From contig PAPR01000060.1 in assembly GCA_002709085.1 (NCBI GenBank), positions 1 to 49,520 of the forward strand: a stretch of 49,520 bases of DNA, read 5' to 3'. The stretch is from Pseudooceanicola sp. (lineage in GTDB: Bacteria > Pseudomonadota > Alphaproteobacteria > Rhodobacterales > Rhodobacteraceae). Under the pieces are notes generated by a model, which was given only the letters and a program-made list of their open reading frames with translations, was not told the origin of the DNA and did not search any database. Both the position numbers and the translations under genes were made by a program. Each line of letters starts with the position of its first letter. The first letter of the stretch is position 1. Of this stretch, positions 30,505 to 35,584 are shown one piece after another.

Positions 30505-31467
30505 TCAGGCGTTTCCGGCGATCAATTCGGCCTGTTTCACGATCACCTCGGCCTGCTTGATCGACGCGATATCCACCAGACGACCCTTGTAGACGACCGC
30601 GCCGGCACCGGATTTCTGCGCCTCTTCCATTGCATCCAGGATCTCTTTCGCTTCGCTCACCTTGGCGTCCGAAGGAGTGAAAACCTCGTTTGCGAGAGCG
30701 ATCTGCTTGGGGTGGATCGCCCATTTTCCGACCATGCCCAGTGTCGCGGACCGGAGGGCCTGCGCCCGGAAGCCCTCTTCGTCCGAGAAATCGCCAAAGG
30801 GACCATCGACCGGCAGCAGACCATGCGTACGGCAGGCGGCGACGATGGCGGTTTGCGCCCAATGCCAGGGATCGGCCCAGTATTTCTGGCCTTCGCGCAG
30901 CATGTAGTAATCTTCCTGCGTGCCGCCGATACCGGTCGTCTGCATCCCCATGGAGGCCGCGAAATCGGCAGCGCCCAGGCTCATCGCCTGCAGGCGGGGC
31001 GAAGCGGCGGCGATCTCTTCCACGTGGGCGAGGCCAGCAGCGGATTCGATTATGACTTCGAGTCCGAGACGCTTTTTGCGCCCCTTGGCCATCTCGATGG
31101 ACGAAATCAGCGCATCGACCGCGTAGATATCCGCAGCACAGCCGACCTTGGGGATCATGATCATATCCAGCCGTTCGCCGGCCTGTTCGACCAGATCAAC
31201 GACATCGCGATACCAATAGGGGGTGTCGAGACCGTTGATGCGCACCGAGAGGGTCTTGTTGCCCCAGTCGATATCTCCGATCGCCTCGATCACCAGCTCG
31301 CGTGCTTTGGGCTTGTCGTCGGGTGCGACAGCATCTTCAAGGTCGAGGTTGATCACATCCGCTGCCGACGTCGCCATCTTTGGCGGCAATTTAGTGTTCG
31401 AACCGGGGCCGAAGAGCTGGCAGCGGTTCGGACGTGCGGGCGGAGTCGGCTGGATGCGAAAGGACAT
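30505..31467 (-). CDS. mcl1: L-malyl-CoA/beta-methylmalyl-CoA lyase (Mcl1 type)
   Basis: The 320-residue protein is of the CitE/HpcH type and agrees in length and wording with Rhodobacter Mcl1, which splits malyl-CoA to acetyl-CoA and glyoxylate, and methylmalyl-CoA to propionyl-CoA and glyoxylate in the ethylmalonyl-CoA pathway. Visible are the start CQLFGPGSNTK, metal/acid pair NLDLEDAVAPDDK, LGLEVIIESAAGLAHVEE, MSLGAADFAASMGM and the CoA-binding KWAIHPKQIALANEVF. The Shine-Dalgarno GAGGTGACG precedes the ATG. It is transcribed away from dgcN across a 261-base interval with repeated TTTGCAAA-like sites and ends at a good terminator. Confidence 0.93.
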   Translation of the reverse strand: MSFRIQPTPPARPNRCQLFGPGSNTKLPPKMATSAADVINLDLEDAVAPDDKPKARELVIEAIGDIDWGNKTLSVRINGLDTPYWYRDVVDLVEQAGERLDMIMIPKVGCAADIYAVDALISSIEMAKGRKKRLGLEVIIESAAGLAHVEEIAAASPRLQAMSLGAADFAASMGMQTTGIGGTQEDYYMLREGQKYWADPWHWAQTAIVAACRTHGLLPVDGPFGDFSDEEGFRAQALRSATLGMVGKWAIHPKQIALANEVFTPSDAKVSEAKEILDAMEEAQKSGAGAVVYKGRLVDIASIKQAEVIVKQAELIAGNA

Positions 31468-31594
31468 ATCGTCACCTCAAAGAAAGGAAATTGCGTATTG
31501 TTCGGGTCGAGCGTTATTAAATTACAGGTTCTGACGCAACCCGATATTGCACCGCGGCATACCGCCGACGGCCGGAAGGAATCGGCGCTGAGAG

Positions 31595-31728: not shown

Positions 31729-32736
31729 ATGATGATCGAGACCCCGTATCTGTTGTTTCTGGGCGATGCCCCGGACATGCTCGCCGCGAAAGTCGCGCAA
31801 GGCATCCGCGACTGGCGCCCCGAAAACGCCGTCGGTCAGTACCGGATGGCCGGGTGCAAGGCGGACATGAAGCTGACCGACATGACGCTAGCAGAGGCCA
31901 AGGCGGCCGGGGCGAAAACGCTCGTCATCGGCGTTGCCAACCGCGGCGGGATCATTTCAGCAGCTTGGAAAGAAGTCCTGATCGCGGCGCTGGAAGAGGG
32001 GTTCGACCTCGCCTCCGGCCTGCACAACCTGCTGCGGTACGAACCCGATTTGAGGGAGGCGGCAGAGCGGACCGGACAAGCGCTGCACGATGTGCGCGTC
32101 CCTTCGGTCAAATATCCGATTGCAGATGGGGTGAAACGTCGGGGCAAGCGGTGCCTTCCCGTCGGCACGGACTGTTCGGTGGGCAAGATGTATACGGCCA
32201 TGGCGATGGATCGCGACATGAAGGCACGCGGGCTGAAATCCTCGTTCCGCGCGACCGGGCAGACCGGAATCCTGATCACGGGTGAGGGCGTGCCGCTGGA
32301 TGCCGTGGTTGCAGATTTCATGGCAGGGTCGATCGAATGGCTGACGCCGGACAATGATGACGACCACTGGGACATGATCGAAGGGCAAGGCAGCTTGTTC
32401 CATGTCTCTTACTCCGGGGTGACGATGGCGCTGGTGCATGGCGGGCAGCCCGACGCGCTCATCCTTTGTCACGAGCCGACTCGGGATCACATGCGGGGAC
32501 TTCCGGGGTATAAGCTGCCCTCGCTGGAAACCCTGCGCGACATGGCCCTGCAACTGGCGCGGGTCGGCAATCCGGCCTGCGAGGTGGTCGGCATTTCCGT
32601 CAACACGCAGCACCTCGATGACGCGGCGGCCAAGGCTTGCCTGCAGGAGATCGAAGACCGCATGGGCCTGCCGACGGTCGATCCCTATCGTCACGGTGCG
32701 GACCGTTTGGTGGATGCGCTGCTGGCGATGGAATAG
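31729..32736 (+). CDS. dgcN: DgcN-family N-acetyltransferase (DUF1611)
   Basis: The 335-residue protein belongs to DUF1611, a two-domain fold with a Rossmann-like N-terminus and a P-loop-like C-terminal half; the loop GTDCSVGKM at residues 146-154 and ATGQTGILITGEGVPLDAVV are visible. In marine bacteria DgcN acetylates D-glutamate as the first step of a D-Glu catabolic route. AAAGGAG precedes the ATG by 5 bases. It is directly followed by the DgcA-like racemase, which supports the function more strongly than sequence alone. Confidence 0.85.
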   Translation: MMIETPYLLFLGDAPDMLAAKVAQGIRDWRPENAVGQYRMAGCKADMKLTDMTLAEAKAAGAKTLVIGVANRGGIISAAWKEVLIAALEEGFDLASGLHNLLRYEPDLREAAERTGQALHDVRVPSVKYPIADGVKRRGKRCLPVGTDCSVGKMYTAMAMDRDMKARGLKSSFRATGQTGILITGEGVPLDAVVADFMAGSIEWLTPDNDDDHWDMIEGQGSLFHVSYSGVTMALVHGGQPDALILCHEPTRDHMRGLPGYKLPSLETLRDMALQLARVGNPACEVVGISVNTQHLDDAAAKACLQEIEDRMGLPTVDPYRHGADRLVDALLAME

Positions 32737-32771
32737 GCACTGACCAGGCGAAGAGGCTCGTGTCTCTGGCG

Positions 32772-32811
32772 CGACGCCTCCGGCGGGAGTATTTTTGACG
32801 AGATGAAGGAG
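32772..32811 (+). repeat. Rhodobacterales-type intergenic repeat overlapping the dgcA ribosome binding site
   Basis: The dgcN-dgcA interval contains GCCTCCGGCGGGAGTATTTT with a following GACGAGATGAAGG. I recognise this string as a recurrent short intergenic element in Rhodobacteraceae genomes, usually a hairpin (CTCC/GGAG) plus T-run. Here its end supplies AAGGAG as the Shine-Dalgarno of dgcA. Only one copy was noticed in this window. Confidence 0.5.
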
Positions 32812-32817
32812 ACCCCT

Positions 32818-33783
32818 GTGCAGTTGCGCGTCACGGCAGACACATTCCCATTGGCCGAGGTCTTTACCATAAGCCGCGGCTCTCGCACCGAAGCGCATGT
32901 GCTGACGGTGACGGTGACGGACGGCGCGATCTCGGGCCGCGGCGAATGCGTGCCCTACGCGCGTTATGGCGAAACGCTCGAGTCAGTCCGGGCGGAAATC
33001 GAGGGGGTGTCGATGCCGCTCGATCTTATGGCGCTGCAAGACCGGCTGCCCGCCGGAGCGGCGCGCAACGCCATCGACTGCGCGCTCTGGGATCTGGAGG
33101 CCAAGCGGCGGGAGCGCCGAGTCTGGGACCTCGCCGGTTTGCCCGCGCCGGGACCGGAGATCACCGCATACACCCTGTCGCTGGCGGGACCTGCCGCGAT
33201 GGAGGAAGCCGCACGCAAACATGCGCATCGCCCAATTTTGAAGATCAAGCTCGGCACGCCCGATGACATGCCCCGGCTTGAGGCCGTGCGTTGTGGCGCG
33301 CCGCAGTCCCGGATCATAATCGATGCGAACGAGGGCTGGAGCGCGGAGGTTTACGCCGACCTCGCGCCGCATCTCGTCCGGCTGGGCGTGTCGCTGGTCG
33401 AGCAACCTCTGCCAGCCGGGCAGGACGACGCGCTTATCGGCATGGAGCGCCCCGTGCCGCTGTGCGCGGACGAGAGCTGTCATGATCGCGGCTCGCTGGC
33501 GTCGCTGACTGGCAAATACGACGTGGTAAACATCAAGCTCGATAAAACCGGCGGCCTGACCGAAGCACTGGCGCTACGCGCCGCCGCGCTGGAGGCCGGG
33601 TTTCGCGTCATGGTCGGCTGCATGGTCGGCTCCTCGCTGGCAATGGCGCCGGCACTGCTAGTGGCGCAGGGCGCAATGGTCACCGATCTTGACGGACCTT
33701 TGCTCTTGGCCAAAGATCGCGACCATGCCCTTACATTTGACACGCAGGGCGTACATCCGCCCGACGCTGCCCTCTGGGGGTGA
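32818..33783 (+). CDS. dgcA: DgcA-like N-acetyl-D-glutamate racemase (dipeptide epimerase-like, enolase superfamily)
   Basis: The 321-residue protein has the muconate lactonising subgroup layout: capping domain (1-120) and barrel with the catalytic Lys pair LKIKLG (Lys142, Lys144), metal ligands Asp169 (IIIDANEG), Glu195 (VEQPLP) and Asp218 (CADES), and the second catalytic Lys240 (NIKLDKTGG). It would be annotated as L-Ala-D/L-Glu epimerase in isolation; next to dgcN the role is racemisation of N-acetyl-D-Glu to N-acetyl-L-Glu. GTG at 32818 is chosen because AAGGAG is 7 bases upstream; the ATG at 32803 lies inside the intergenic repeat and has no such signal. Confidence 0.85.
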   Translation: MQLRVTADTFPLAEVFTISRGSRTEAHVLTVTVTDGAISGRGECVPYARYGETLESVRAEIEGVSMPLDLMALQDRLPAGAARNAIDCALWDLEAKRRERRVWDLAGLPAPGPEITAYTLSLAGPAAMEEAARKHAHRPILKIKLGTPDDMPRLEAVRCGAPQSRIIIDANEGWSAEVYADLAPHLVRLGVSLVEQPLPAGQDDALIGMERPVPLCADESCHDRGSLASLTGKYDVVNIKLDKTGGLTEALALRAAALEAGFRVMVGCMVGSSLAMAPALLVAQGAMVTDLDGPLLLAKDRDHALTFDTQGVHPPDAALWG

Positions 33784-33831
33784 GGCGCAGGGCTTGCAGC
33801 GATCTATTGGTTTCACGATTGGAAAATTGCC

Positions 33832-34671
33832 ATGTTTTCACCCGCAGCTTCTGTCCCGCGATTGGCAGTCCTGATTCTTCTTGTCCTATTGATTGCCAGC
33901 TTTGTCGGACCGCAGGGATACGCACGGGCCGATAGTTGGACGGTTCAATTGACCAGATCGCAGGCCAAGAATTTTGCTGAAACGCAAGCAGCCGCAAAAA
34001 GCAACTGGGCCTTTGCAATCTCACCCGACGGTGGTTGGGGACGCAGTTGGGAATATGCAACTGCCGAAGGCGCGCGCACGCGAGCGATGCAGGAATGCCG
34101 ATTGCGTCTGCGGAAGGGCAAGCGCGACTGCGCTCTCTTTGCGGAGAACGGCAAACGGCTGATGCCTGTGGTGATCGAGACCCGGCGGGTGTCGAAGGTT
34201 TATAAACCCGTGAACGGGCGCAGCGCCGCGGCGGTGATCGGCCTGGCCCCGATGTCTTTTCGCGGCAATCCGCAGGCCGCCAAAGCGCAGGTCGCCGCGA
34301 TTAACGCAGGGTCGCTTAACGTCGCGAACCCGCCAGGCGACCGGGCTTTGATGACTATGTTGCGGGATCGTAGTCTGGCAACGACATCGGGTTTCGAATC
34401 CGTTGTGTACTTTGGCCGTCCGCAGGCACAGCGTCTGATCGAGTCAAATAGCGGGCTGCTGTCCATCCGGTTCACCGGCTGGCGCGCGACGCGCGAGGGG
34501 GCGGTTTGCATGGAAAATGGACGTTGGGCGACCGGTAAGCCATTTGGCAACTTTTGCCTCGTTATTCATGCCATCGACAATGGCCGCATCACGTTCTCAT
34601 GGGGGGACTCAAATGCATCCCGTTCGGCCTATCTGATTGCAGGCGACGCCAGATTCGCTCATGTCAGGTGA
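33832..34671 (+). CDS. exported protein of unknown function between dgcA and the D-amino acid aminotransferase
   Basis: The 279-residue protein has a signal peptide or anchor (residues 8-33) and an N-terminal region (about 58-105) similar to DUF4189-type domains: WAFAISPDGGWGRSWEYATA, then Cys-containing AMQECRLRLRKGKRDCALFA. The remaining 170 residues are beta-rich with no motif I know. The family is not assigned to any reaction. It sits 48 bases after dgcA and 55 bases before the aminotransferase, in the same direction, so it may be expressed with them, but a transport or sensing link to D-amino acids is only a guess. Confidence 0.7.
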   Translation: MFSPAASVPRLAVLILLVLLIASFVGPQGYARADSWTVQLTRSQAKNFAETQAAAKSNWAFAISPDGGWGRSWEYATAEGARTRAMQECRLRLRKGKRDCALFAENGKRLMPVVIETRRVSKVYKPVNGRSAAAVIGLAPMSFRGNPQAAKAQVAAINAGSLNVANPPGDRALMTMLRDRSLATTSGFESVVYFGRPQAQRLIESNSGLLSIRFTGWRATREGAVCMENGRWATGKPFGNFCLVIHAIDNGRITFSWGDSNASRSAYLIAGDARFAHVR

Positions 34672-34726
34672 ACGCGCCGGACGTGGCGCCTCCCTGCGAG
34701 CCCAACTCGAACCAAAGGACCCCAAA

Positions 34727-35584
34727 ATGCGCACCGTTTACGTGAATGGGGAATACCTCCCCGAAAATGAAGCCAAGATCTCGGTTTTCGACCGGGGTTT
34801 CCTGATGGCCGATGGCGTATACGAGGTGACCTCCGTGCTCGACGGCAAGCTGGTGGATTTCGAGGGTCACGCCAAGCGGTTGGAGCGGTCGCTGCATGAA
34901 CTCGACATGGCCTCGCCCGTGACCACCGACGAGCTGCTCGCGATCCACCGGGAATTAGTACAGGTAAATCAGTTGGACGAGGGAGGGATTTACCTGCAGA
35001 TCACCCGCGGCGCGCCTGCGGACCGGGATTTCGCCTTTCCCGATCCCGAAGAGACGCCCTCCTCAATCGTGCTGTTTACACAGGCGAAGAACCTCGCCAA
35101 TGCGCCTTCAGCCCAGGCTGGGATCAGCGTCATCTCGATCGAGGATATTCGCTGGGGCCGGCGCGACATCAAGACCGTACAATTGCTCTACCCCTCCATG
35201 GGCAAGATGATGGCCAAGAAGGCCGGGGCGGATGATGCCTGGATGGTCGAAGACGGGCAGGTTACAGAGGGCACCTCGAACAACGCCTATATCGTGAAGG
35301 GCCGCAAGATCATAACCCGACAGTTGTCCAACGACATCCTGCACGGGATCACACGCGCCGCCGTCCTGCGGCTGGCCAAGGAAGCACAGATGGAAGTCGA
35401 GGAGCGTGGATTCTCGATTGAGGAGGCGCAAGGGGCGGACGAGGCGTTCATCACCTCTGCCACGACCTTTGTTCAGCCGGTCGTTACGATTGACGGCTCC
35501 TCGGTCGGCACCGGCCAGCCGGGCAAGATCGCCCTGCGCCTGCGTGAGATCTATATCGAGGAAAGCCGTAAGAAGGCACTGTAG
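34727..35584 (+). CDS. dat: D-amino acid aminotransferase
   Basis: The 285-residue protein is a fold-type IV PLP enzyme of the DAAT group, which transfers the amino group between D-alanine, D-glutamate and other D-amino acids and 2-oxo acids. The N-terminus YVNGEYLPENEAKISVFDRG, ADGVYEV, PLP lysine Lys149 in RRDIKTVQLL and Glu181 in TEGTSNN, with the late FITSATTFVQPVV, match Bacillus-type D-alanine aminotransferase. An AAAGGA precedes the ATG at 34727; upstream in-frame starts overlap the preceding gene. With dgcN-dgcA it would feed D-amino groups into D-glutamate. Confidence 0.9.
   Translation: MRTVYVNGEYLPENEAKISVFDRGFLMADGVYEVTSVLDGKLVDFEGHAKRLERSLHELDMASPVTTDELLAIHRELVQVNQLDEGGIYLQITRGAPADRDFAFPDPEETPSSIVLFTQAKNLANAPSAQAGISVISIEDIRWGRRDIKTVQLLYPSMGKMMAKKAGADDAWMVEDGQVTEGTSNNAYIVKGRKIITRQLSNDILHGITRAAVLRLAKEAQMEVEERGFSIEEAQGADEAFITSATTFVQPVVTIDGSSVGTGQPGKIALRLREIYIEESRKKAL

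Follow-up and report, generated by a model that had tools for sequence, protein, structure and literature searches.

We analysed a window of 49,520 nucleotides (nt) from a Pseudooceanicola sp. genome (GCA_002709085.1, contig PAPR01000060.1, positions 1 to 49,520), in which four open reading frames (ORFs) had been predicted to form a module for the breakdown of D-alanine and D-glutamate: dgcN, dgcA, a gene for an exported protein (X279) and a gene for a D-amino-acid transaminase (DAT). The genome is 3.0 Mb, 77% complete and spread over 78 contigs. Its closest relatives by DgcN similarity are Rhodobacteraceae, with Pseudooceanicola at the top (89%). All four ORFs were found again on the plus strand at the coordinates of the original prediction, and the reversed gene next to them matched a malyl-CoA lyase, as had been proposed. 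The genes of the locus are as follows.

31729 to 32736, plus strand: dgcN, predicted D-glutamate N-acetyltransferase, 335 amino acids (NF041892, PF07755, PF17396)

32803 to 33783, plus strand: dgcA, predicted N-acetyl-D-glutamate racemase of the enolase superfamily, 326 amino acids (NF042940, Protein Data Bank (PDB) entries 4gfi and 1jpd; YcjG-like too)

33832 to 34671, plus strand: X279, exported-looking protein of 279 residues with a DUF4189-like N-terminal part (PF13827; four invariant cysteines)

34727 to 35584, plus strand: DAT, predicted fold-IV D-amino-acid transaminase, 285 amino acids (PRK06680; K149, E181)

30505 to 31467, minus strand: malyl-CoA lyase, divergent neighbour (PDB 4l9y, 581 bits)

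The gaps between the genes from dgcN through DAT are 66, 48 and 55 nt, sizes that are compatible with one transcription unit but no proof of it.

DgcN, a DUF1611 protein in the original prediction, scored 557.9 bits against the NF041892 equivalog model (cut-off 480), covering profile positions 1 to 326 of 326, and has the DUF1611_N and DUF1611 P-loop domains (Pfam PF07755, PF17396). DgcA scored 498.0 bits against the NF042940 equivalog model (cut-off 400) in a full-length match, as membership in that family calls for, and it is accompanied by a dgcN, as membership in the DgcN-DgcA pathway requires. Its score against PRK15129, the L-Ala-D/L-Glu epimerase model, was 306.9 bits, under the cut-off of 343; its PDB matches were 4gfi (347 bits) and 1jpd (268 bits). 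The residues K147, K149, D174, E200, D223 and K248 are all present; in the enolase superfamily these are the catalytic ones. Both gene assignments held up against curated cut-offs, and the active site of DgcA is intact. Yu et al. reportedly described a DgcN-DgcA pathway for D-glutamate in marine Proteobacteria and haloarchaea in 2023 (ISME J). The window resembles that system in having adjacent dgcN and dgcA genes, both above their equivalog cut-offs, and differs from it in having DAT downstream and a divergent malyl-CoA lyase. Judged by its sequences, the module belongs to this published pathway, with DAT attached as is usual in its relatives; its core is already known. Passages of two papers describe DgcN and DgcA as converting D-glutamate to L-glutamate (PMC10845958, PMC12363236).

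DAT scored 374.2 bits against the PRK06680 subfamily (cut-off 320) and 236.0 bits against TIGR01121 (D_amino_aminoT), which is below the cut-off of 277.45. The nearest solved chains are the D-alanine aminotransferases 9pxs and 3lqs. Numbered from the ATG at 34727, the expected lysine is K149 and the glutamate E181, so the enzyme first described as a fold-IV D-amino acid aminotransferase with these two residues was recovered as such. The substrate carboxylate of canonical group I transaminases is held by Tyr31, Arg98 and His100, according to passages of PMC3907554, PMC10003956 and PMC12429042. We aligned the window DAT with 94 relatives, nearly all from the family, and took the register from alignments to solved chains. 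The Tyr and Arg of the trap are retained (Y32, R100) and the His is replaced by Phe (F102; RDF in the window versus RxH) in 95/95 proteins aligned. The Tyr-Arg-His trap given in passages of PMC10003956 and PMC12429042 is thus incomplete for want of the His. The non-canonical group II motif, in a passage of PMC10003956, is R26, F31 and T or Y33 in bsDAAT numbering; DAT has Y32 and V34 in all 95 proteins and, in the window sequence, M27 at the Arg position. Compared with group I enzymes of the Bacillus sp. YM-1 type, the window DAT shares fold IV, the pyridoxal phosphate Lys with its Glu, and the Tyr and Arg of the trap, but differs in having Phe for the trap His. The published motifs thus place DAT in neither of the two groups, and its preference for D-alanine or D-glutamate cannot be read from the sequence.

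The arrangement recurs widely among relatives. We took 80 loci of the family chosen by DgcN similarity and scored them by tblastn with the window proteins. Genes for DgcN, DgcA and DAT stood together in 73 of the 80, and 64 of these 73 also had the malyl-CoA lyase, which was present in 69/80 loci overall. All of the other seven have dgcN: the lyase accompanies it alone in three and together with dgcA in two, a further locus has dgcA but no lyase, and the last has dgcN only. Five of them are short loci of 4.0 to 8.6 kb (L009, L018, L019, L049, L071); in L045 and L075, by contrast, some 7 kb of sequence follow dgcN, yet DAT is missing. Such recurrence is not chance, and the predicted adjacency extends well beyond the window genome. 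Across the 198 family genomes, counted at E 1e-100, dgcN and dgcA occurred together in 151, dgcN alone in 0, dgcA alone in 20 and neither in 27 (Fisher p 7e-21 for the association, kinship ignored). By curated cut-offs dgcN was present in 149 and dgcA in 170 of the 198, and DAT was above its cut-off in 187.

We consider it fairly probable that the locus serves the salvage of D-amino acids, as a unit of a kind common in Rhodobacteraceae that runs from DAT through DgcN and DgcA into L-glutamate. DAT would pass the amino group of D-alanine, and perhaps of other D-amino acids, to 2-oxoglutarate in a reversible reaction that yields D-glutamate. DgcN would then join D-glutamate and acetyl-CoA to N-acetyl-D-glutamate, and DgcA would invert this to N-acetyl-L-glutamate, to be deacetylated or used elsewhere. 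D-alanine and D-glutamate derived from peptidoglycan would thereby reach L-glutamate. On this reading X279 would be a passenger, carried in a slot whose content varies, and the malyl-CoA lyase an old neighbour. The curated family models, the conserved gene order, the intact catalytic residues and the fact that dgcN never occurs without dgcA (0/151) all argue for this reading. A D-amino-acid transaminase is also the proposed entry step for D-alanine in Pseudoalteromonas CF6-2, where Yu et al. (2022, AEM) are said to have described D-alanine metabolism through a D-alanine aminotransferase; the likeness is one of proposed function. The pathway as originally predicted is plausible but unproven: every activity in it is inferred, as are co-transcription, the direction in which it runs and the origin of its substrates. 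A Rhodobacteraceae isolate with dgcN, dgcA and a DAT gene grows on D-alanine and D-glutamate, according to passages of PMC11747546 in which the adjacency of the genes is unstated.

Several findings weigh against this reading. The Phe at the trap His in every aligned protein, together with the score under the TIGR01121 cut-off, makes the substrate range of DAT uncertain. Occurrence of dgcA without dgcN misfits a strict two-step pathway. DAT is kept in 17 family loci that lack dgcN (those fetched out of 23 dgcN-less family genomes with a listed DAT position), with the lyase in the same locus in 13/17. Outside the family, DAT lies beside dgcN in only 2/40 loci (L154, L178); we picked these 40 from the 67 genomes of a class sample, the window's family excluded, whose DgcN scores above its cut-off, and in two of them (L164, L167) the sequence stops about 1.1 kb downstream or sooner. 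Within the class sample the link to DAT therefore belongs chiefly to the window's family. DAT is retained, mostly with the lyase, in loci that lack dgcN or the whole dgc pair, so its position may be independent of them. Of the original claim that the four genes make one module, the gene identities, the shared run and the conserved order stood. Adjacency as evidence that DAT serves DgcN and DgcA was weakened by the loci without dgcN and by the outside loci.

Of all the results, the one of greatest interest is the repeated occurrence of dgcA without dgcN. The gene is kept in 20/47 family genomes without a strong dgcN; counted the other way, a dgcN match is missing from 20 of the 171 family genomes in which DgcA is strong. 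Weak dgcN matches occur in two of the 47 (G035, G136), neither of which is among the 20 with dgcA alone, and in those 20 a search for DgcN at E 0.001 found nothing. Since 17 of them reach a completeness of 98% or more, gaps in the assemblies do not account for the pattern. The 17 dgcN-less loci divide into 11 with dgcA beside DAT, five with the lyase beside DAT and neither dgc gene, and one with DAT alone. We added three loci from dgcN-less genomes bearing dgcA, and each of them has dgcA, DAT and lyase, in a different order in one. In 14/14 of the dgcN-less loci with dgcA that were fetched, DAT lies downstream of dgcA on the same strand. In full-text searches bearing on dgcN and dgcA, the titles, abstract openings and passages seen had nothing on dgcA without dgcN or on DAT beside dgcA.

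The lone DgcA proteins look much like the others. When 14 of them were compared with 96 other family DgcA, 109 positions carried one and the same residue across the two sets with little or no variation, the catalytic residues included, and three alignment columns tended to differ. All 12 of the lone DgcA that were scanned pass NF042940, at 489 to 508 bits. A quick DgcA tree of 84 rows, in which 33/81 inner branches are weak, needs five changes of dgcN presence, three of them forced by well-supported branches; an earlier tree of 103 rows needed three, two of them forced. As far as these trees go, dgcN has been gained or lost more than once while dgcA stayed, and counting changes cannot separate loss from gain. 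The identity of lone DgcA to the window protein falls about 4.6 points short of what the identities of lyase and DAT predict (11 vs 76 loci, p about 2e-5), where most of the 76 comparison loci were selected by DgcN similarity; set against 17 other family loci that we picked, their mean identity is 69.7 vs 71.0%. We considered weaker constraint on dgcA in the absence of dgcN and, given how the comparison loci were selected, do not regard it as settled. Either DgcA would have a further substrate, or the acetylation of D-glutamate in genomes with a lone dgcA would fall to some other enzyme.

A plausible candidate for a second activity is that of E. coli YcjG, an experimentally tested L-Ala-D/L-Glu epimerase according to a passage of PMC5808125. 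It is 46% identical to the window DgcA and shares with it the catalytic residues and a DxD pair. The YcjG of E. coli K-12 (L248:4931-5893) scored 424.1 bits against NF042940 and so passes the DgcA cut-off of 400, and two dgcN-adjacent DgcA of other families, L163 (364.0 bits) and L186 (345.1 bits), are above the PRK15129 cut-off. Because of this crossing the two models do not cleanly separate functions; either of them alone can mislabel a protein, and a pass on NF042940 does not prove the substrate. The window DgcA differs from YcjG in falling under the epimerase cut-off, and at 22 positions where DgcA is conserved YcjG has another residue. The lone DgcA keep 19 of these 22 in 14/14 proteins and the remaining three in 12 or 13, which argues that they are not simply YcjG.

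Taken together, these observations can be read differently. DgcA may be primarily or additionally a YcjG-like epimerase of L-Ala-D/L-Glu dipeptides from peptidoglycan, in which case dgcA and DAT would be the stabler pair, serving murein salvage, and dgcN an add-on for free D-glutamate. We take this seriously but think it somewhat less probable than its denial. It would account for the largely complete genomes that keep dgcA without a strong dgcN, for the constant place of DAT after dgcA in the dgcN-less loci and for the well-supported changes of dgcN presence in the tree, and it is consistent with the shared active site and the crossing of models between YcjG, L163 and L186. On the other side, the lone proteins resemble DgcA, unlike YcjG, at the 22 conserved positions, the shortfall in identity may mean weaker constraint (with the loci selected as said), and another acetyltransferase could replace DgcN. 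In its broader form, the proposal is that DgcA of Rhodobacteraceae has a DgcN-independent substrate, such as L-Ala-D-Glu of the cell wall, since dgcA persists without dgcN and its active site is unchanged in the 14 examined. The dgcA-DAT pair would then be a murein-salvage core and the DgcN-DgcA route one optional use of a bifunctional enzyme, a view that we again hold somewhat less probable than its denial.

DAT could also serve mainly to supply or balance D-glutamate and D-alanine for cell-wall synthesis, with DgcN and DgcA draining surplus D-glutamate. That DAT is above its cut-off in more of the 198 genomes than dgcN (187 vs 149) speaks for this, as does a strong DAT in 13 of the 17 genomes of the family in which TIGR00067, the model of the glutamate racemase MurI, has no match. 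However, the window genome itself has Alr (217.1 bits, cut-off 168) and a MurI-like racemase at 142.6 bits, just below a cut-off of 146.65 that is passed in only 56/198 family genomes, so DAT is not obviously needed there for cell-wall D-glutamate. Absence of MurI was rejected as proof that DAT supplies D-glutamate because other relatives of Asp/Glu racemases occur in 11 of the 17 genomes, several of which are incomplete. On balance we find the supply role unlikely. One genome, G090 (97% complete), has neither a TIGR00067 nor a PF01177 match, and DAT may be its only source of D-glutamate.

We return to the salvage unit and its surroundings in other families, where a dgcA-like ORF was present in 40/40 dgcN loci. 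In the vicinity of dgcN and dgcA we saw ORFs like gamma-glutamyltranspeptidase in 10/40 loci, like an oligopeptide ATP-binding cassette ATPase in 8/40 and like N-formylglutamate amidohydrolase in 5/40; one member of each cluster was checked in Pfam, and the counts are without a background control. Examples of the first and third lie at L149:5043-6833 and L155:10674-11555, both in Alphaproteobacteria. The N-formylglutamate amidohydrolase-like protein could be a missing deacetylase. The malyl-CoA lyase is a neighbour of the module in the window, and any role in the pathway, or in the control of carbon assimilation as first suggested, is putative.

X279 was originally thought to be an uptake or sensing part. 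Its N-terminus has a hydrophobic, signal-like stretch, read by eye, and its N-terminal part just matches Pfam PF13827 (DUF4189; 26.2 bits, cut-off 25). Four cysteines (C89, C100, C226, C242) are invariant in the four proteins aligned. Searches of NCBIfam, PDB sequences (with the single sequence) and plasmids gave no match; PHROGs gave none for the window protein and two weak ones for its relatives (E 0.006 and 0.056). A profile against the PDB gave one match at chance level (E 0.2), and an AlphaFold model (mean pLDDT 65.9, pTM 0.47) had no PDB match by Foldseek at E 0.001. A suspected likeness of its C-terminal region to Pfam DUF995 came up in no search.

The protein is also rare. Counting the window genome, matches over most of its length were found in 3/198 family genomes (6/198 with any match) and in 2/292 genomes of a second sample (28/292 with any match, the rest over the DUF4189 part). 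A near full-length copy occurs in one of the 80 synteny loci (L041), and when related genomes were searched for it, as had been suggested, only four genomes beyond the window's held near full-length relatives, with no match in G192 of the same genus. The slot between dgcA and DAT is longer than 200 nt in 25/85 loci, and four of these long slots hold X279. At least eight of the 21 others hold different-looking ORFs, judged by eye: dihydroxy-acid dehydratase-like in L021, phosphoesterase-like in L054, L057, L060 and L065, and exonuclease-like in L010, L073 and L079. No clear gene was seen in L013, L017, L026 and L033. The gap thus looks like a site where insertions are tolerated, and X279 is probably one of several passengers in it, and no part of the pathway. 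The main point against a passenger is position: all five copies (window, L041, L188, L189, L190) lie between dgcA and DAT, in differing genera, as one would expect of a functional exported part that binds or senses fragments of peptidoglycan. Given its rarity, its absence from G192, the variability of the slot and searches that matched no transporter or binding-protein family, we think such a function very unlikely, and the uptake or sensing role was not borne out.

Rhodobacteraceae are abundant in coastal seas. The recurring link of DAT with dgcA, in which dgcN is optional, offers a direct way to test how D-amino acids enter L-glutamate in this family, and it carries a warning that a pass on NF042940 is no proof of N-acetyl-D-glutamate racemase activity. 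D-amino acids of the cell wall are an important share of slow-turning marine organic matter, according to passages of PMC10845958 and PMC12363236.

An operator upstream of dgcN was considered because the block TTATTAAATTAC occurs in 4/11 aligned upstream stretches; the cut in several of the stretches misses the start codon by a few bases, and we claim nothing from it. In the window the block TTATTAAATTAC lies at 31514-31525, between the starts of the malyl-CoA lyase and dgcN, and it is common to three relatives.

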